Assembly: GCA_030524035.1 (NCBI GenBank)
Contig: JAUNHG010000003.1
Coordinates: 62,001-126,000 of the forward strand
DNA length: 64,000 nucleotides
Reading direction: 5' to 3'
Origin: Kocuria sp.
GTDB taxonomy: Bacteria; Actinomycetota; Actinomycetes; Actinomycetales; Micrococcaceae
A model generated the notes under the pieces. That model searched no databases. It saw only the letters and a program-made list of their open reading frames with translations, and was not told the DNA's origin. Both the position numbers and the translations under genes were made by a program. Positions 6,643 through 63,420 of the stretch are shown here, piece after piece. Position 1 is the first letter of the stretch, and each line of letters opens with the position of its first letter.

Positions 6643-6883
6643 GGGTGCCTCCATTTCTTGGGGATTTGTGTACATAACACAGAACCACCGCACCCGCGTT
6701 CGGCCATCGATCGAGGCTCACGGAATGTCACCCGCTGTCATATGGGGGATTCCGGGAGCCACTGTCGAGGACCGCCACCCGAGTCGTGGTGAAGTTCTGT
6801 TCCCAGCCTGTCAGATGTCTGCATAAAACACCGGTATTGATGGCTGGTATCGGCTCATGCCTTCCTGGCAGAGCCTGGACATA

Positions 6884-7215: not shown

Positions 7216-7388
7216 GATGAACTCCTTGGGTTCAGTGCCGTGCGGCCCGGGGTGGTGTTCCACGACCGGGTCTCAGGACTTGGTGCTAGCACCTCAGTTT
7301 CTGAGGGTCCGTCCACCACGGACTGCAGACGGACCGAGGGGTAGTCTAGCAAAGCCCTGACCCAAGAGGGCCCGCACATCAGGCTACG
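7216..7388 (-). promoter_or_regulatory. rpsO leader with inverted repeat
   Basis: The 173 bases before rpsO hold a perfect 8-bp inverted repeat (GGTCCGTC, 7306-7313, and GACGGACC, 7328-7335). A shorter alternative helix, GTCC/GGAC, lies within the same segment. This could be an S15 autoregulatory structure or the terminator of the upstream accessory gene that ends at 7389. No confident -10/-35 pair was identified. Confidence 0.35.
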
Positions 7389-8783
7389 TCAGGCTTTTGA
7401 TGGGTCGCTAGATGCGCTTGCCAGAACGCGGTCAACGGCTTCCACCAGGGAATCGTGCCAGGTCTGCGGCACCACGGATTCTAGACGCACCATATTTTCC
7501 ATGGCTGCAACCAGGTTTAGGGGGCCGCACGTGGCGGTGTGAATCCATCGCGGGAAAAGATCAATCCCGGGAAGTTCTAGTGCCCAAAACGACCACGGGG
7601 GTTGGAGCAATTCTGTCTCACAGCCTTCAGGGCCATTGAAGTCCAGGAGTTCCGGCGTGGGGGTATCCCAGAAGATGTCACGACCAATAAAGGTTTGCAT
7701 CTGCATAATGTCAACCGTCGTGGCGATCGGCAAAGGCCAGGTGGCATGCATACCACTCCACGCAGCCAGGATGGCGGGGACGCTCCGGTAATGCTCCCAC
7801 ACAAGGTACTGGACCCCATCACGACCGGCCACAAGGTCTAACGCCGTGGGGCCAAGTAGCGCTATAGCGCGATCGTCTTCCATCCATACGTCCACGAAGG
7901 TTGTGTGGCCCGCCATGTGACCAACACCATGAATATCTGGGGTATTTTGTGTCACCAGAGCAGCTTGATGCCCCTCACGTGTAAGAACACCATCACGCAC
8001 CCAGTCCATGCGTTCCAAGGTGCGCAGGTGAGTGGATCTAAGCTTGGTGGAGAACCCGCCGAGAGGGCCGGACTGGTGGATCATGCGTAGGGTATCCAGG
8101 ATGCCTTCAGGAACTGTGTGCACGACCCCAGGTAGAGGGACCGCCCCAGAACTGAGCTCCGGGATCGATGGGGATACTTCCAGAGTTTCAGAAATGCGGG
8201 AATTCCCCCAAAAACCACCAATTTCAGCAGTAGCTATGGAATCCACCGCATCATGTGGGATCACGGGACGTGTTGGTCCGTGATATTGCTGTGTGAGCCG
8301 GACGGAGCATGCCATGGCTCTGCCTAAATCCAGGAAATCCCCTGAAAGGCCTGCGGGTAACGTGAGGGAAATTTCCACAACCGTTCCTGCTGCTCCCACA
8401 AACCAATGCCATTGGGTGAAGGCAACCCCGGATTCCAATCCACTGATTGACATTTCACGACCAGTCAAACCGTGGTCCGTCTGAAAGTAATCCCAACTCA
8501 GAAGGGAACTCCCGGAAAAATACTCCAGTAATCCTCTGGTGCAATCTGCCGCTGCTCGTGCAACCCCACCCCCCTCTTCATCCGCCATAAAAAAGCGAAC
8601 CACAATATTAGGGAGCATTGTGATGCGGGATTCTATGGCGTCTCGCATCTCATCATCTATAGGAAGAGTGGCGATAATTAACCCTTCATGTTCGGAAGGA
8701 ACTATTGTCCAATCTGCAGGAAAAATCATGTCCGTGGGACCCACGGGCATAGTCACCATATTGGTGCCTAAAAAGTCATGCAT
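7389..8783 (-). CDS. Cytosolic protein of the T7SS-like cassette, unknown function
   Basis: Not recognised with confidence. The product has about 464 residues, with no signal peptide and no clear membrane segment. Roughly residues 15-170 alternate strands like LpqN/PsbP/DcrB-type domains (DWTIVPSEHEGLIIATL; PNIVVRFFM; GTVVEISLTL). The second half (230-460) has a central mixed segment (GVLTREGHQAALVTQ; FVDVWMEDDRAIALLG) that loosely recalls ESX secretion-associated proteins such as EspG, but this is inference. Its start lies inside the end of the membrane-protein gene: ATG at 8783, or GTG at 8792. No good ribosome-binding site is seen, so coupled translation is likely. Last gene of the cassette. 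Confidence 0.7.
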   Translation of the reverse strand: MHDFLGTNMVTMPVGPTDMIFPADWTIVPSEHEGLIIATLPIDDEMRDAIESRITMLPNIVVRFFMADEEGGGVARAAADCTRGLLEYFSGSSLLSWDYFQTDHGLTGREMSISGLESGVAFTQWHWFVGAAGTVVEISLTLPAGLSGDFLDLGRAMACSVRLTQQYHGPTRPVIPHDAVDSIATAEIGGFWGNSRISETLEVSPSIPELSSGAVPLPGVVHTVPEGILDTLRMIHQSGPLGGFSTKLRSTHLRTLERMDWVRDGVLTREGHQAALVTQNTPDIHGVGHMAGHTTFVDVWMEDDRAIALLGPTALDLVAGRDGVQYLVWEHYRSVPAILAAWSGMHATWPLPIATTVDIMQMQTFIGRDIFWDTPTPELLDFNGPEGCETELLQPPWSFWALELPGIDLFPRWIHTATCGPLNLVAAMENMVRLESVVPQTWHDSLVEAVDRVLASASSDPSKA

Positions 8784-9705
8784 TGTTATCACCGTTGAGT
8801 TTTTGTTTGATGATCAAATACGTCACATCATGATCCAGTAACGACGACTGCAAACCCACCGTATTCCCCACCGCCAACAAACCACCCACACCACCAGGGC
8901 GTCCCGAATGCCACCGATTCGCTTTCCGCACACGATCAGCAGCCCCTTGCGTGACCTCCACCACAATCTTTGACGGTAACTCACGCACACCCACTACCTC
9001 ACCCCACACCAACTCCCACGACCGAGTCCGCAACCCCCGCTCATCCAACACCACATGCTCAGGACGCACCCCACCCCACAAGAAATACACACCCAACACC
9101 ACCAAAAACACACCCATCACCGGAAACGCCGGCCACCACACCCGAGAAATCCCCGACGCCGACCCAGTCACCGCAAGACTCCAAAACAACAACACACTCA
9201 CCACACCCAACCCCACACACACCACACCACTAACCAACCACCGAACCACCTGAACCCTCGACTTAAACGGCAACTCCCCCGTTAAATCCTCATCCTCGTC
9301 TATCACCTCGCCCCACTCATCGCTAAGGTCCAACTCCCCCGTAGCTAAAAACTCTTTAATCCACCCCGGCAATAAAAACCGCGGCAACGGGAAATACTGG
9401 CCCCACAACGCCACCGGCAACACCACCAACAGATTAAACGCCGCCAAAAGCATACTAACCGCCCCAATGAAAGTGGACACACCCTCCTCAGGGGGATCGA
9501 ACATTGACATAATCGACGCAAAAATACCCCCTTGCGAGAATGCAGCGATCGATAAACCTAAGAGGGGTGGGTACCCCCACCCTCGGTGTAAGATCCATTC
9601 TTTATCGGCCCCTATCCAGGCAGGGAGGAAAATGAGGTAACCCACCCCACACAAAACAAGACAGAAGAGTATAAGATACGGAGCCGAAGGGTCATATATC
9701 GTCAT
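8776..9705 (-). CDS. Multi-pass membrane protein, candidate immunity or accessory protein
   Basis: A 309-residue protein with about five hydrophobic segments (near 8-28, 45-65, 78-105, 155-180 and 188-212). A strongly acidic cytosolic loop (about 125-140) separates them. The C-terminal ~90 residues (VLDERGLRTRSWELVWGEV) resemble the PH-like cytosolic domains seen in other actinobacterial membrane proteins. Its ATG overlaps the stop of the large putative effector gene by four bases. A membrane protein immediately downstream of a glycine-zipper protein is what an immunity factor would look like, but this is inference. The coding strand is unusually rich in G and T. Confidence 0.75.
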   Translation of the reverse strand: MTIYDPSAPYLILFCLVLCGVGYLIFLPAWIGADKEWILHRGWGYPPLLGLSIAAFSQGGIFASIMSMFDPPEEGVSTFIGAVSMLLAAFNLLVVLPVALWGQYFPLPRFLLPGWIKEFLATGELDLSDEWGEVIDEDEDLTGELPFKSRVQVVRWLVSGVVCVGLGVVSVLLFWSLAVTGSASGISRVWWPAFPVMGVFLVVLGVYFLWGGVRPEHVVLDERGLRTRSWELVWGEVVGVRELPSKIVVEVTQGAADRVRKANRWHSGRPGGVGGLLAVGNTVGLQSSLLDHDVTYLIIKQKLNGDNNA

Positions 9706-11243
9706 TTTAATCCCAGCATTCCTGCGATTTTATTTTTCGCGTCATCTGCCACTTTACCCGCTTCCTTGGCGGCATCACGTGAACTATTAGCAAGTCCCTC
9801 TATCTTATTACCTAGAGCACTGCTGATGCTTTCTTTTTCCCCATCCCCATCAGAATCCGGCAGAATCTTCAGGTTATCCACCAAGCCCGAGGCCACCACA
9901 CCAGCCACAGCACCAGCAGCCCCACCAATAATGGTTCCACCCACCGGAATCACGGACCCCACCGCAGCCCCAGCGGCAGCGCCGGCCGCCACGCTCATTC
10001 CAATTTGTCCGGCAGTATTAGCCGCTGCATCAAAACCAGCTTCCTTCAGGATCTCCTCATCTGACATCCTAGGATTTTCCCGCCGTAACTTTTCCACATT
10101 CTTTTTCTTCTCATCATTGAACGTCAGCCCAGCAGAAAGCGCCGACCCCCCAGCACCAAAAACCTTACCCCCAATCCGCACGGCCTTTGATAACTTACTT
10201 TCCTTCACTTCAGTCGTTTTTTCCGCGATCACACGCGAATTCTTGTTCTCGCTAACTACCTCTCGCGTGGAACGTGTCCTCTTCGAACTTCGGAACTCCT
10301 CCCTTAAACCGGCTAACGGCAAACCCGCCACAAAATCTTTCTTAAACTTCCGTGCGCTCCAGGCTGCCCCCTGCAATACCCCACCTTTAAATGCAGCCTG
10401 CCGCTGCCGACGTAACTCAGCAGCCTGTGCTTTTGCGTTATCCCAGTCACGGCCCATCACACCCAACACACCACCGGGGCCATGCCACAACACGGTGTTA
10501 AACACCGACGACGTATCCCGCACCCGCGCACGACTCACAACAGAAGACTTCCGCTCAACCACCTCACCGTCGGGCCCTAGCCGTTCCTCAATCTTCCGCG
10601 ACGATGTTGTTGTCTTCTGAACCCGCTGACCACCGAGGAAAGTAGCCCCCACGGTCAACGCCCACGAATTCGCAACGCCCTCTACACCACGCAACACACC
10701 ATCCGTTGAAGCATCACCACTATCGGTGATGCTCGGTAGCGGGGTGATTTCTAAACCGTTGATCGTATTCACGGCAGCATCAATCACCGACTCATACTCA
10801 CCCTGCAACACCGCCACCTCAGCCACCAGCTGGTCATACCACCCCTGGTCCATTGGATCGAGCTCCGCGTATGTCAATGGTTGGTATAACCCATGGAAAA
10901 ATTCCACGGCCGACGCATGCTCCCCACGTCGCCGATGCAGCAGTGTTAACTCATCACACAGCACCTCTAAAGCACTTGCCACTGAGTCCCCAAAGACTTT
11001 GATGTCATCGGCTAACGCCACAGAGGAGTCCAACCCCGCGTACAAAACCTCTTGTGCATCCCCCTCATAGTGGGCGGCCAAGCCCACCCACTGGGTATGA
11101 GCATCTACAACATGCCCTTCAAACCCCGCCGATTTATCCCTCACATCACCCGCCAAACTATCCAACACCAGCGGTGACTCCCACTCAGAAAAACCCTCAA
11201 CACTCACAAACGGCACACCCACCACACCTTTTCTTTCCCTCAC
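9702..11243 (-). CDS. Putative WXG100/LXG-type protein with glycine-zipper C-terminus
   Basis: About 505-513 residues; the start may be GTG 11243, or GTG 11222 or 11216 behind AAAAGG. The N-terminal ~170 residues are predicted helical with an ESX-like layout (HTQWVGLAAHYEGDAQEV, then long helices to about 165). A basic linker follows (about 190-370, RSSKRTRSTREVV). Residues ~405-460 form a glycine-zipper stretch (AAGAAAGAAVGSVIPVGG; GGAAGAVAGVVASGL), then a DSDGDGE acidic motif and an amphipathic tail. This matches the general plan of T7SS-secreted pore-forming proteins such as TelE. No homology is proven, and a structural or phage-like role is possible. Confidence 0.7.
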   Translation of the reverse strand: MRERKGVVGVPFVSVEGFSEWESPLVLDSLAGDVRDKSAGFEGHVVDAHTQWVGLAAHYEGDAQEVLYAGLDSSVALADDIKVFGDSVASALEVLCDELTLLHRRRGEHASAVEFFHGLYQPLTYAELDPMDQGWYDQLVAEVAVLQGEYESVIDAAVNTINGLEITPLPSITDSGDASTDGVLRGVEGVANSWALTVGATFLGGQRVQKTTTSSRKIEERLGPDGEVVERKSSVVSRARVRDTSSVFNTVLWHGPGGVLGVMGRDWDNAKAQAAELRRQRQAAFKGGVLQGAAWSARKFKKDFVAGLPLAGLREEFRSSKRTRSTREVVSENKNSRVIAEKTTEVKESKLSKAVRIGGKVFGAGGSALSAGLTFNDEKKKNVEKLRRENPRMSDEEILKEAGFDAAANTAGQIGMSVAAGAAAGAAVGSVIPVGGTIIGGAAGAVAGVVASGLVDNLKILPDSDGDGEKESISSALGNKIEGLANSSRDAAKEAGKVADDAKNKIAGMLGLK

Positions 11244-11284
11244 AAGACGTTGTCAACGAGCCGGTTTCCACCCAGCAACCAGAA

Positions 11285-11626
11285 TTAATGAGCATGCCCC
11301 GGCATAGACGGGTGCACCACAAGGCCCGCAGAGGTTTGCGACTGCTGCGCCATCTGCGCATCGCCCTGCACCACGTGACTCACAGCTGCACTCCCATGGC
11401 ACGTCACGGCATCCACACGATCCACCACCGACTCCATCGCTGGCACTAACGTCTCATCACGCAATCGCATTAACGCCGCGTGCAGTACCGAGCTTTTGGC
11501 CTCAGACATCGCACTCTCAACCGTCCGATCCATACCCGCGCGCTGCGCATCCGCTAGCTCGCGATCAGCGTCCACCGCAGAGAAAACACCACGACACCCT
11601 TCAACGTTCACGCTGTACGAACTCAA
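11285..11626 (-). CDS. Small WXG100-superfamily-like protein (DUF6507-like)
   Basis: About 113 residues. It begins SSYSVNVEGCRGVF and is then two long helices with a break near the middle. A C-terminal VVQGDAQMAQQSQ segment resembles the DUF6507 group of ESAT-6-like actinobacterial proteins. There is no signal peptide, as expected for T7SS substrates or chaperone-like partners. A TTG at 11626 has GGGAGGGG just upstream and overlaps the stop of the preceding small frame (TTGA). A GTG at 11608 is an alternative. It precedes the large putative effector by about 42-63 bases, the usual order of small partner then large substrate. Confidence 0.65.
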   Translation of the reverse strand: MSSYSVNVEGCRGVFSAVDADRELADAQRAGMDRTVESAMSEAKSSVLHAALMRLRDETLVPAMESVVDRVDAVTCHGSAAVSHVVQGDAQMAQQSQTSAGLVVHPSMPGHAH

Positions 11627-11823
11627 CAAACCCCTCCCGTCACGTGAGACAAACAACAGAAGACCCTATCCACCTGCTCCGCCAGCACAACCACACTCCA
11701 TCCATCCGCATACACAAAGCCCAAGGGCTCCGCATGATCCCCGGCAACCCGCCGAATAAACCCACATAACTCACGACAACCACAACACGCCCCACCCACA
11801 CCGTGGCCCACAGCCCATTCCAT
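11623..11823 (-). CDS. Small cysteine-containing protein, unknown
   Basis: A 66-codon frame (ATG 11823; open to 11874) at the head of the cassette. It contains ACCGCRELCGF near its start, then a hydrophobic segment (GFVYADGWSVVVLAEQVDRVF) that could be a strand-helix unit. It is kept because its stop overlaps the candidate TTG start of the WXG100-like gene by four bases, as in coupled genes, and because the space to the divergent aldo/keto reductase gene is otherwise empty. The ribosome-binding site is weak. It may be non-coding. Confidence 0.4.
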   Translation of the reverse strand: MEWAVGHGVGGACCGCRELCGFIRRVAGDHAEPLGFVYADGWSVVVLAEQVDRVFCCLSHVTGGVC

Positions 11824-11888
11824 CAACAGCCCACTTATGGGCAGAATGGAACACAAGAACAATCCCGCGGTCATCTAGGGGGGCACCC

Positions 11889-12887
11889 ATGCAACAGTCC
11901 AACCAGGGCAACCACAAATCCGCCAAGGACTCCAAAAACACCGGTATTGAGTACGACCAAGCAAAGATTGACCAAGCCGGGGCGGAGGCTGAACAGCGCG
12001 AAGACTTCTTTGACGGCCACGAGTTCCGCACTCAACTGTGGGATCAAGTCGGTGTAGCAGATCGTCGCCATACATTGCGCGACGGCAACCACATCCCCCA
12101 AATCGGTTTAGGTACAGCCCGTATGGATAACAGCACCGCTGAAGCTGTGGTGTATGAAGCACTGACCACCGGGTTCCGTCTAATTGATACCGCCGCCAAC
12201 TACCACAACGAAGCCGGCGTAGGCCGAGCACTCAAAGACTCCCTCCTGCCCCGGGAAGACGTCTTCGTCACCACTAAACTTCCCGGTCGGGACCACGGCA
12301 CACACTCCGTACGTGAATCGTTAGAAAAATCCCTGAACCGTCTACAGCTGGACTGGGTGGACCTTTACTTAATTCACTGGCCTAATCCGGGGCGTGGTCA
12401 GTACGTGGAATCCTTCCGCACCATGTTGGAACTGCGTGAGGAAGGCCTGATCACATCTGTGGGAGTTTCTAACTTCACCCCAGAGATGGTGGATGAGCTC
12501 ATCGCCGCAACTGGCGAAGCCCCCGCCGTCAACCAGGTTGAGCTCCAGCCCCAGTATCAACAGGAACCACTGCGCGCCCACCACCACGAACACCACATTT
12601 TGGTGGAAGCATGGGCTCCACTAGGCCATGACTCGAAGATCCTGAAACACCCCTGGATCAACGAAATCGCCACAGACCGGTGTCACACCCCCGCCCAGGT
12701 TGTGCTCCGTTGGCACATCCAAAATGGTGTGCTGCCCATTCCCAAAACCACCAAAACCACACGTATGGCAGAAAACCTGGACGTATTTGGCTGGGAACTC
12801 ACTGATGAACAGATGCACCGCATGAAACTGCTCCACACCGGTCTGTCAGCATCCGGATACAACCCCTGGGAACACGAGGAGCTCTAA
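11889..12887 (+). CDS. Aldo/keto reductase (AKR) with N-terminal extension
   Basis: A 332-residue NADPH-dependent oxidoreductase of the 2,5-diketo-gluconate reductase type. The AKR tetrad regions are visible: FRLIDTAANYHNE (Asp, Tyr), TTKLPG (Lys) and LYLIHWP (His). VSNFTPE and the C-terminal cofactor motif IPKTTKTTRM are also present. The first ~60 residues are charged and Gln-rich and lie before the barrel start (LRDGNHIPQIGLGTARM); such extensions are not usual for the family. ATG 11889 follows AGGGGGG. It is the only plus-strand gene in the first 42 kb, between the T7SS-like cassette and ribF. The substrate cannot be told. Confidence 0.88.
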   Translation: MQQSNQGNHKSAKDSKNTGIEYDQAKIDQAGAEAEQREDFFDGHEFRTQLWDQVGVADRRHTLRDGNHIPQIGLGTARMDNSTAEAVVYEALTTGFRLIDTAANYHNEAGVGRALKDSLLPREDVFVTTKLPGRDHGTHSVRESLEKSLNRLQLDWVDLYLIHWPNPGRGQYVESFRTMLELREEGLITSVGVSNFTPEMVDELIAATGEAPAVNQVELQPQYQQEPLRAHHHEHHILVEAWAPLGHDSKILKHPWINEIATDRCHTPAQVVLRWHIQNGVLPIPKTTKTTRMAENLDVFGWELTDEQMHRMKLLHTGLSASGYNPWEHEEL

Positions 12888-17123: not shown

Positions 17124-20021
17124 TCAAGCGCGGGGCTTCTCCTGTAGCTCCCAGGTTTCGATGACGTCGCCTTCCTTGATGTCATTGAAGGATCCTAGGC
17201 CGATACCACATTCGTACCCATCTCGGACTTCCACAGCGTCATCCTTAAACCGGCGCAGGGACTCAATCTTGAGCTTGTCCTGAACCACGTTGCCGTCACG
17301 AACCAACCGAGCGTTGGCGTTGCGTTTGATCAGGCCTTCCGTCACATAGGAACCAGCGATATTGCCCCACTTGGAAGAACGGAAAACTTCCCGCACCTCT
17401 GCCTTGCCCAGTTCGACTTCTTCGTATTCAGGCTTGAGCATGCCCTTCAACGCGGCTTCAACGTCGCCCAACGCGTTGTAGATGACCGAGTAGAACTTCA
17501 TCTCCACGCCTTCGCGGTCCGCCAGTTCCGAAACACGTTCAGCGGGACGCACGTTGAAGCCGATGATGATCGCGTTATCCACCGTGGCCAAGTTGACATC
17601 GTTCTGAGTAATCGCACCCACACCACGGTGAATCACCCGCAGCTGAACTTCCTCAGAAGCCACCTCAATCTTCATCAACGAGTCCTCCAAAGCCTCCACG
17701 GCACCGGAGACGTCGCCCTTGATGATCAGGTTCAAGGTATCAATCTTGCCCTCAGCGACGGCAGCGTCGAAGGACTCCAGGGTCACCCGCTTGCGACGCT
17801 TCGCCAGCAACGCGTTGCGATCAGCAGCCTGACGTTTCTCAGCAATCTGCCGCGCGGTGCGCTCTTCGGCGGTCACCAAGAAAGTGTCACCGGCGCGGGG
17901 CACCGAGTTAAGCCCCAGCACTTGCACCGGACGCGACGGAGTTGCTCGCTCCACCGCTAAACCATCTTCATCAAACATGGCTCGCACGCGCCCGTGAGCA
18001 CCACCAACCACCATGGAGTCGCCTACGTGCAACGTGCCTGATTGAACCAACACCGTACAGACGGCACCGCGTCCACGGTCCAGGTTGGCCTCAATCGCCA
18101 CACCACGGGCCTCTTTATTGGGGTTAGCTTGCAATTCCAACGTACCGTCAGCGGTTAGCACCACCGCTTCCAGCAGTCCTTCAATGTTTTGCCCGGCGCG
18201 CGCAGAAACATCCACAAACATGCTGTCCCCGCCGTAGTCCTCCGGAATCAGCCCATACTCGGTGAGCTGTCCACGGATTTTTTCCGGGTTAGCTTCGGGC
18301 TTATCAATCTTGTTGACTGCTACCACAATCGGCACGTTGGCGGCCTGTGCGTGATTCAACGCTTCCACAGTTTGCGGCATAACGCCGTCGTCAGCAGCCA
18401 CCACCAACAAAGCGATGTCAGTCACCTGAGCACCACGGGCACGCATGGCGGTGAACGCTTCGTGACCTGGGGTATCAATAAAGGTTAGCTTGCGCTCTTC
18501 ACCTTCAACCTCAGTGGAGATCTGGTAGGCACCGATGTGCTGGGTGATGCCACCGGCTTCACCCTCAATCACCCGCGTATTACGAATGGCATCCAACAAG
18601 CGGGTCTTACCGTGGTCTACGTGACCCATGACGGTCACCACCGCAGGCCGGGGTTCCAAAACCTCATCGTCTTCAGCTGCCGATTCAGCCGCCAAATCAA
18701 TGTCAAAGGACTCGAAGAGCTCGCGTTCCTCGTCCTCCGGGGAAACGATCTTAATGATGTATCCCAGTTCGGCACCCAGCAGCTCAAATGTTTCTTCGTC
18801 CAAGGACTGAGTCTGTGTGGCCATTTCACCCAAATGAATCAGTACCTGCACCAACGACGCCGGATTGGCTTCAATCTTTTCTGCAAAGTCCATCAAGGAA
18901 GCACCACGGCGCAAACGCACCTCAGTAGAGCCATCACCATGCGGGACAGAAACACCACCGATCTTTGGAGCGTTCATCTGCTCCAGTTCTTGGCGTTTTG
19001 CCCGACGTGACTTCCGACCCTTGCGGGACGGACCGCCACGGCCAAAAGCGCCCTGGGTGGCTCCCCTACCGCCACGGCCTGGCCCACCACCGGGACGGAA
19101 ACCGCCGCCCGCACCGGGGGCTGCACCACCACCTCCGCCGCCACCGCGGCGCTGACCACCCTGACCACCAGCTCCTCCACGACCGCCGGGGCGTGCACCC
19201 ACCGGCGCGACGTTGGAGGTGTGACCGGGCATCATGTTCGGGCTGGGACGCGGACCCGCAGGACGCGACCCACGGGGTGTTTGCCCCGGACGCGGACCGG
19301 CAGGACGCGGTCCAGCCTGACCACCGCCCTGCCCACGCGAACCAGAACGCGACATCCCCTGCTGAGAAGCAAACGGATTATTCCCCGGACGCGGACCGGC
19401 AGGACGCGGTCCAGCCTGACCACCGCCCTGCCCACGCGAACCAGAACGCGACATCCCCTGCTGAGAAGCAAACGGATTATTCCCCGGACGCGGACCCGCC
19501 TGGCCACCAGGTTTGGGGCCAGCGGTCGGTTTCGGAGCGGACTTGGCCGCCACGGTATCCGTGTCCACAGCGGTCTCTTGATCATTGCCTTTACCGTGAA
19601 CTTCAGGCGCGGGAGAGTCTTCCTTGCCCTTGCTCGAAACCTCAAGGGGCTTGGGGGTTGGAACAGGACCGGGCTTAACACCCGGCTTCGGAACGGGCGC
19701 ACGAAGTGGCTCCGGTTTTTGCTCAACTTCAGTGGTCTGTTCCGTGACCGGATCAGCAGTCTTCTGAGGAGCCTTGTCCTCCTTGGCGGGAGCGGATTTC
19801 TTCGCGGTTGATGTACCAGCTGTGGTCTTCTTCGGCGGAGCTTGAGTCTCAGCAGGTGCCGCATTGGCCCCGACCGCGTCCTTCAGTTTTTTGGCCACCG
19901 GGGGTTCGACCGTGGACGATGCTCCACGAACGAATTCGCCCAGATCTTGAAGCTTGGCAATGGCTTCCTTAGAAGTCATGCCAAGTTCTTTGGCCAGCTC
20001 GTGTACTCGTTGCTTAGCCAC
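17124..20021 (-). CDS. infB: Translation initiation factor IF-2
   Basis: A 965-residue GTPase that places initiator tRNA on the 30S subunit. An IF2-N helix domain (res 1-50) is followed by a long Pro/Gly/Arg-rich linker to about 340 that includes a perfect duplicated 33-residue unit. A second IF2-N domain (about 370-420) precedes the G domain with GHVDHGKT (~464), DTPGHEAF and NKID. C-terminal domains II-IV follow. The linker is typical of high-GC actinobacteria. It is located downstream of ylxR and nusA, the classic nusA operon order. Confidence 0.96.
19284..19496 (+). repeat. Perfect 99-bp tandem duplication inside infB
   Basis: Copies 19284-19382 and 19383-19481 are identical base for base. 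A third partial copy of about 15 bases begins at 19482. The period of 99 bp keeps the frame and duplicates 33 residues (unit containing [18 protein letters not shown]) in the IF-2 linker. Confidence 0.95.
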
Positions 20022-32499: not shown

Positions 32500-32620
32500 T
32501 TTGATGCCGTGCTTGCCGCAGGTCCGTTGACCAGAGCCGGATGTTCATCTGGGGCACCCCACCACGTATGAGGGTTGCCGCTCGGCCAGCCAGAGCTTGT
32601 CACCGAGACTCGTCATCCAG
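32500..32620 (-). ncRNA. SAM-IV-like riboswitch upstream of metQNI
   Basis: On the minus strand the leader carries the blocks expected of the actinobacterial SAM-IV class, in order: GACGAGT, GGTGACAAGCTCTGGCT, GGCCGAGCGGCAACCCTC, TGGTGGGGTGCCCC, AGATGA and a 3' GGCAAGCACGG. Terminal pairing is GGATG with CATCC. The same blocks recur upstream of metX at 63303-63420. SAM-IV RNAs bind S-adenosylmethionine and repress methionine genes. The match is by remembered consensus, not by a covariance search. Confidence 0.85.
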
Positions 32621-63302: not shown

Positions 63303-63420
63303 ATGACCCGCGCTTGCCACGGCACGATCGTGGGTGGCCTGGTCTTCACCCAGGGCACCCCACCGCGGTGGAGGGTTGCCGACCAGCAAGCTGGGGCTTA
63401 ACGCTGGCGCTCATGACCGC
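63303..63420 (-). ncRNA. SAM-IV-like riboswitch upstream of metX
   Basis: On the minus strand it runs GGTCATGAGCGCCAGCG, AAGCCCCAGCTTGCTGGTCGG, CAACCCTCCACCGCGG, TGGGGTGCCC, GGGTGAAGACC and then a 3' GTGGCAAGCGCGG. These blocks match the actinobacterial SAM-IV consensus, including the GGTC/GACC terminal helix. The same blocks occur before metQNI at 32500-32620. A covariance search would settle the class. Confidence 0.9.

Follow-up and report, generated by a model that had tools for sequence, protein, structure and literature searches.

A four-gene, minus-strand cassette of about 4.5 kb (7337-11819) lies between rpsO and ribF in the 64,000-nucleotide stretch of Kocuria sp. DNA analysed here (contig JAUNHG010000003.1, positions 62,001 to 126,000; hereafter the window). 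We consider it probable that this cassette is a self-contained toxin module of a type VII secretion system of the ESX kind (T7SSa), composed of a candidate toxin (P0003), a WXG100-like partner (P0001), a putative two-headed chaperone (P0005) and a putative membrane immunity protein (P0004). Our best reading is that it represents an actinobacterial counterpart of the EsxX and TelE systems. Two of the observations supporting this proposal are new: the P0005 family is linked to toxins that end in a glycine zipper, and P0005 is predicted to have a two-fold architecture.

In the proposed mechanism, P0003 would be a toxin whose N-terminal end is a helical export domain and whose C-terminal end forms a glycine-zipper hairpin, and the zipper would insert into the membrane of a neighbouring cell and depolarise it, perhaps as a pore. 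P0001 would pair with the export domain, and the resulting complex would be recognised by an EccC protein encoded elsewhere in the genome. Within the producing cell, the EspG-like half of P0005 would hold and target the helical export end, and the Eag-like half would cover the hydrophobic zipper, thereby keeping the toxin soluble and harmless in its maker. EccC would export the toxin and P0005 would stay behind. Finally, P0004 would reside in the membrane and block toxin coming from sister cells. The core of the initial annotation, which proposed an orphan T7SS substrate and immunity module with DUF6507 as a candidate family, is supported by the evidence below.

DUF6507 genes, their partners and ESX

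There are 58 DUF6507-like open reading frames (ORFs) in the 56 sources collected, which comprise the window, 15 loci from searches with P0003, with EccC or with DUF6507 at genus level, and 40 loci from an order-wide DUF6507 search. A partner, defined as a same-strand ORF of at least 170 amino acids directly downstream of the DUF6507-like gene, is present for 54 of them, and the other four were omitted from the tabulation. The P0003 profile matches 49 of the 54 partners at E ≤ 0.01, although 29 of those matches lie only before profile position 180. Toxin domains exceed their Pfam cut-offs in nine of the 20 long partners scanned: Tox-REase-5 (two), GH-E (three, one with the glutamine deamidase domain Gln_amidase), Endonuclea_NS_2 (two), Ntox15 (one) and an ADP-ribosyltransferase (one). 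Therefore, the common N-terminal domain carries exchangeable toxin ends. Judged by these profile matches, the family is one of polymorphic toxins, with a common, presumed export domain at the N terminus and unrelated C-terminal toxin ends. Four partners also match WXG100 at E ≤ 0.01 but below the Pfam cut-off, and a P0003 paralog on contig C7 of the same genome adjoins EccC, EccD-like and WXG100 genes.

The initial annotation had named WXG100, LXG and DUF6507 as candidate families for the cassette. The small protein P0001 scores above the curated DUF6507 cut-off (Table 1) and has no Pfam match to WXG100 itself (PF06013) up to E 5. A relation to WXG100 proteins nevertheless emerges from profiles, because the DUF6507 profile aligns with EsxA-like WXG100 proteins (hhalign 77%, E 2e-5) at a score of 28.1, compared with 9.8 for the best of 20 shuffles and 13.5 for the reversed profile. 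EsxB-like proteins are not matched by hhalign (13.8 versus 16.6 reversed). A search of the Protein Data Bank (PDB) with DUF6507, using hmmsearch, returned mostly helical bundles and coiled coils, the best being 'sohair' at 1.7e-6, and no T7SS protein. The family is named in no paper found by our literature searches, which covered open-licence papers.

The motif YxxxD/E is an ESX signal. There are 29 sequences among the 58 DUF6507-like proteins that carry [YF]xxx[DE] in their C-terminal part. The related FxxxD is a likely export signal of Lap proteins, according to excerpts of PMC12744356.

DUF6507 is found in three of the 27 genomes of the genus, and these are the same three in which EccC scores above the TIGR03924 cut-off. 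Among 396 genomes sampled from the order, DUF6507 occurs in 38 and EccC exceeds its cut-off in 97, namely in 35 of the 38 genomes with DUF6507 versus 62 of the 358 without it (Fisher p 8e-21, a value that ignores kinship). It had been proposed that the cassette would depend on an ESX locus elsewhere, and two EccC loci are indeed present on other contigs (C1 and C7) of the same genome, which comprises 2.32 Mb in seven contigs. EccC is above the cut-off at both, EccD is above it at C1 and slightly below it at C7, and each locus has a DUF6507-like gene alongside small EsxA/EsxB-like genes.

Two other arrangements were observed at such loci. Locus L103 (G417:C1:112000-131900) contains, inside 20 kb, four consecutive units of a DUF6507 gene and a partner, each with EsxA-like and EsxB-like genes. 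Three genes behind the second ESX locus (L025 11892-17178, on G000:C1) resemble by eye CRISPR-Cas type I genes (Cas3-like, Cse1-like).

The predicted folds of P0005 and the candidate glycine zipper

The initial annotation described P0005 as a cytosolic partner. Its soluble nature stands, but that description missed what the predicted model suggests, namely two fused chaperone-like folds. In the model, the N-terminal half has the fold of SciW and EagT6, which are Eag chaperones of the type VI secretion system (T6SS), and the C-terminal half has the fold of the ESX protein EspG. There are 22 ORFs of the P0005 family in 17 sources. The halves are encoded by separate adjacent genes at three loci (L030, L089 and L091:18231-19776), and at three others (L031, L052 and L118:3889) the P0005 profile detects the N-terminal half only. 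A sequence relative of this half is the uncharacterised Jonesia denitrificans protein in PDB entry 3lyd (E 6e-8). Pfam gives no match of P0005 to EspG (PF14011), nor any in the whole genome, and none to Eag/DUF1795; eight relatives or half-relatives have no match or only sub-cut-off matches to other families. PDB searches by hmmsearch reached Gid8 at best with the first P0005 alignment (E 0.0029, 57 positions), and PduA (E 0.014) and weaker matches only with that of the C-terminal half.

Residues 403-444 are the most hydrophobic part of P0003 and contain a run of GxxxG motifs. Here there are Pfam matches below cut-off to DUF3482 and DUF6861 (E 3.2e-4), and the latter, at 20.6 bits with a cut-off of 28, is the top sub-cut-off match among the four proteins. 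None of the four scores above the cut-off of a known non-ESX family, which is in keeping with the initial annotation. Gly-zipper_Omp matches, also below cut-off, occur in the relatives from L031 and L052.

Zipper toxins were defined as having at least seven motifs in the last 170 residues, a threshold chosen after the counts were seen, which falls at a gap between 7 and 4. A member of the P0005 family is located on the same strand within 3.5 kb downstream of 16 of the 17 zipper toxins versus one of the 37 other partners (Fisher 1.3e-11). The lone case among the 37 is L028, whose toxin is of the P0003 type with a weaker zipper. In the 40 loci fetched by DUF6507 alone, the family accompanies all eight zipper toxins and none of the 33 others. 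Unfiltered searches with both halves for chaperones hidden in the non-zipper loci found no new members (best E 0.0069 for the C-terminal half and 0.05 for the N-terminal half). The N-terminal half of the L027 chaperone is itself a weak match (E 0.067).

One possible, though rather doubtful, explanation for these data is that the module is as described but P0005 has a single role, either in cytoplasmic immunity or in targeting as a chaperone, and its PsbP-like half may bind a target other than the zipper. Tsi3 and Tli4/TplEi, which are T6SS immunity proteins, also have the PsbP-like fold, and EsaE, a protein with the EspG fold, serves as targeting chaperone for a nuclease toxin whose immunity protein is a separate one (PMC10653861, in excerpt). 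However, members of the P0005 family accompany zipper toxins rather than the other toxins encoded after DUF6507 genes, and zipper binding fits this pattern better than general targeting. We give roughly even chances to the more specific proposal that P0005 is a bifunctional chaperone, in which a T6SS-type fold that sheathes transmembrane helices and an EspG targeting domain would together serve ESX export of pre-armed membrane toxins in actinobacteria. Such a chaperone would be paired with glycine-zipper toxins and would have evolved independently of the solution with the GyrI-like proteins ExiB and TipE in Bacillota. No report of such a fusion was found in the same literature searches.

Gene copies, insertion site and layout

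Orphan copies of the cassette's 3' toxin end and membrane gene are consistent with an immunity function for P0004. A copy on contig C4 spans 1,076 bp (96.2% identical) and includes just the last 53-54 toxin codons and the membrane gene, which forms a complete ORF of 309 amino acids. This copy begins directly behind the stop codon of another gene. G006, another genome of the genus, has two copies of the membrane gene (70% identical), separated by a remnant of the toxin tip. A relative of P0004 on contig C3 (42%; G000:C3:84982-85476), where there is no P0003 match, is a candidate for a second orphan immunity unit. The membrane gene behind the zipper toxin on C7 is present twice (L022 16837-18120, G000:C7), with the same residues in the ends compared. 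When the genome was searched with P0005, the only matches up to E 10 were P0005 itself and C7, and therefore there is no P0005 at C4 or C3. Excerpts of PMC12744356 describe membrane immunity that is orphaned without the soluble protein (ExiCD versus ExiAB), and part of PMC9484751 describes how T7SS immunity genes recombine. Thus, the anatomy of tip plus P0004 without P0005 fits what the EsxX/ExiAB/ExiCD model predicts, if P0004 is the immunity protein. By a crude count, an ORF with at least two hydrophobic segments is located within 1.5 kb downstream at 12 of the 17 zipper loci and six of the 37 others.

Mycobacterial ESX substrates have roles in their own envelope, in the host or in relation to phage. 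By analogy, and because no activity is known for the toxin, P0003 might have its target in the envelope of the producing cell, in a eukaryotic host or in phage instead of being an antibacterial weapon. We regard this as improbable, since different toxin ends on a common N-terminal domain, the orphan copy of the tip with its membrane gene and the duplicated membrane genes are all signs of bacterial antagonism.

Downstream of the zipper, the toxin tip has an EF-hand-like loop, D-x-D-G-D-G-x-x-E-S, that recurs with small changes in six of the seven aligned relatives. As a general feature of the family, this loop was rejected: it is present in six of 18 zipper-type proteins, all from two genomes of the genus.

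There are matches to rpsO and ribF on a single contig in all 27 genomes of the genus. The distance between them is 5,700 bp in the window, close to the 5.6 kb estimated in the initial annotation. It is 7,267 bp in G006 and ranges from 1,162 to 2,469 bp in the remaining 25 genomes. The earlier comparison with Corynebacterium and Mycobacterium was misplaced, as the genus is Kocuria. Part of the gap is filled by an aldo/keto reductase gene (11889-12887, plus strand) that relatives also have. By blastn, the homology of the window to the gaps of G001, G017 and G024 ends at 7336, and it restarts with 31 bp from 11820 in G001 and from 11946 in all three. Thus, where G001 has 141 bp, the window has 4,483 bp, with the upper limit (11819) set by G001 alone, given that G017 and G024 restart only at 11946. 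The cassette is found at this site in just two of the 27 genomes, the window and G006, and is consequently not a core element of the locus. In G006 the same genes occur in the same order at the same site, with protein identities of 43-53% compared with 84% for ribF. This could reflect either fast divergence after a single insertion or two separate insertions at the site.

Several observations weigh against the interpretation of the cassette as an ESX toxin module with a zipper-binding chaperone. P0003 has no Pfam match to LXG (PF04740) up to E 5, and the toxin N-terminal domain profile has no real match to EsxA (hhalign 1.3%, 15.6 versus 14.4 reversed). For these reasons, P0003 is described as working like an LXG toxin and not as a member of that family. 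The hhalign test, which gave no support for EsxA- or EsxB-like proteins, is insensitive, because EsxA versus EsxB fails as well. The best PDB match of the toxin alignment by hmmsearch is an OmpA-family protein (0.018). The zipper count is borderline, with eight motifs versus a shuffle mean of 4.2, and 262 of 5000 shuffles reach eight. For P0005, the Eag-like fold is promiscuous, in that PsbP, Mog1, Apa, LpqN and T6SS immunity proteins score equally high, and the EspG link is based on fold; by profile, hhalign gives 2.2%, yet the score is 23.1 versus 12.9 for the best of 30 shuffles. The linkage counts are not independent, because 12 genomes supplied the 17 zipper loci, and 11 of these genomes belong to a single family and the twelfth to another. 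A zipper paralog on contig C6 of the host genome (L023) has no P0005 gene, and the membrane gene is not universal, because five of the 17 zipper loci show none by the crude count. Furthermore, neither EccB nor mycosin was found among the nine ESX-locus ORFs scanned.

A final point of this kind is that P0001 lacks the tyrosine of the family's C-terminal motif, whose place is taken by V or M in the window, L026 and L023. Perhaps the island is decaying and export of the toxin has been lost, and its location on a different contig from both ESX loci would suit such a history. This is quite unlikely, the least probable of the explanations given here, because the four coupled ORFs are intact and a second species has the same set, likewise with open frames, at a protein identity of 43-53%.

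The four genes are located where the initial annotation placed them (Table 1). The compact coupling that it described holds for these four, with an ATGA overlap at 9702-9705 and an 8-nucleotide overlap at 8776-8783. Start codons were chosen on the basis of gene coupling and alignment with relatives (TTG for P0001, GTG for P0003). The coding strand shows a marked excess of G across the upper three genes (skew -0.26 to -0.55, blocks 8751-11750) that is absent from most of P0005 (+0.06 to -0.07, blocks 7251-8750). The TTGA-coupled upstream ORF at 11623-11874 (P0002), also included in the earlier description, was rejected and is probably not a gene, because it has no family match and just a 16-residue match (E 0.2) in G006. 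As to insertion by a mobile element, none of the ORFs of the window stood out as integrase- or transposase-like, where the family scan covered P0002, RibF, the aldo/keto reductase and the four cassette proteins.

Table 1. Features of the cassette, in window coordinates
Feature	Position	Strand	Basis
Inserted cassette	7337..11819		Limits from the shorter intervals of relatives (blastn versus G001, G017, G024)
P0001, DUF6507, WXG100-like partner (Lap-like)	11285..11626	-	PF20117, E 4.5e-9, 37.3 bits, cut-off 25; profile relation to EsxA-like proteins
P0003, proposed T7SS-exported toxin with exchangeable C-terminal end, 505 aa	9702..11216	-	N-domain profile matches 49/54 ORFs after DUF6507 genes; C7 paralog
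Candidate glycine-zipper hairpin of P0003	9888..10013	-	Overlapping GxxxG run within the most hydrophobic stretch
Putative C-terminal toxin tip with EF-hand-like D-x-D-G-D-G loop, copied with membrane gene	9705..9866	-	89% identical tip on C4; 96.2% DNA identity over 8791-9865; loop in 6/7 aligned relatives
P0004, multi-pass membrane protein, proposed membrane immunity protein	8776..9705	-	4-5 hydrophobic segments; tandem copies in G006; orphan copies on C4 and C3
P0005, 464-aa soluble two-domain protein, Eag/PsbP-like and EspG-like; proposed toxin chaperone and cytoplasmic antidote	7389..8783	-	AlphaFold2 (AF2) predicted template modelling score (pTM) 0.72; Foldseek and VIA matches; family co-occurrence
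N-terminal Eag/PsbP/Mog1-like domain of P0005	8286..8774	-	
C-terminal EspG-like domain of P0005	7416..8153	-	

Elsewhere in the window, an Actino-pnp RNA is located upstream of pnp (6699-6776, minus strand), barely above the Rfam gathering score (47.9 versus 47.7). There are also two SAM-IV riboswitches above the gathering score, both on the minus strand (63305-63418 and 32504-32617). The G+C fraction rises to 0.72 at 19001-19500, compared with about 0.57 on either side.

Significance and known systems

One question for T7SS toxins is how the maker produces and exports a membrane-attacking protein without harming itself. If our proposal is true, several actinobacterial genera unite the T6SS-type and ESX-type answers in one polypeptide. 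Probable roles would also be given to DUF6507, to an unannotated family represented by the 464-amino-acid P0005 and to PDB 3lyd. On the same proposal, the presence of DUF6507 in 38 of the 396 genomes would point to many probable antibacterial toxins of T7SSa, a system best known from mycobacteria, within the order.

As judged by hidden Markov models, the cassette toxin and P0005 are outside the LXG, EspG and Eag families. The closest parallel is the EsxX system of Staphylococcus aureus ST398, with LapX3/4, ExiAB and ExiCD, which is a type VIIb secretion system (T7SSb). Excerpts of PMC12744356 describe, as proposed for the cassette, a large toxin with a helical N-terminal end and a C-terminal glycine zipper, small helical partners encoded upstream, polytopic membrane immunity proteins that also occur as orphans, and soluble proteins encoded with the toxin. 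The cassette differs in phylum and in T7SS type, lacks an LXG Pfam match and has a single DUF6507 partner. Its soluble protein has predicted PsbP/Eag-like and EspG-like folds, whereas the EsxX system has a GyrI-like DUF5085 pair (same excerpts). Similarly, TelE and TipE of Streptococcus gallolyticus are a glycine-zipper T7SS toxin and its antidote protein, but they belong to the LXG family, DUF5085 and T7SSb, respectively for toxin, antidote and system (PMC10434224, in part).

The two halves of P0005 have separate precedents. Compared with EsaE, the chaperone of EsaD (PMC10653861, in excerpt), and with mycobacterial EspG, the EspG-like domain of the cassette differs in being joined to, or encoded next to, another chaperone-like domain and in its association with zipper toxins. 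PDB 3lyd is a stand-alone domain related to the N-terminal half. The Eag chaperones SciW and EagT6, whose fold this half is predicted to share, stabilise the transmembrane domains of effectors by mimicking helical packing, according to portions of PMC7773334 and PMC12881460. Unlike P0005, they serve the T6SS of Gram-negative bacteria, act on N-terminal transmembrane domains, have no EspG half and show no family match to P0005 at the sequence level.

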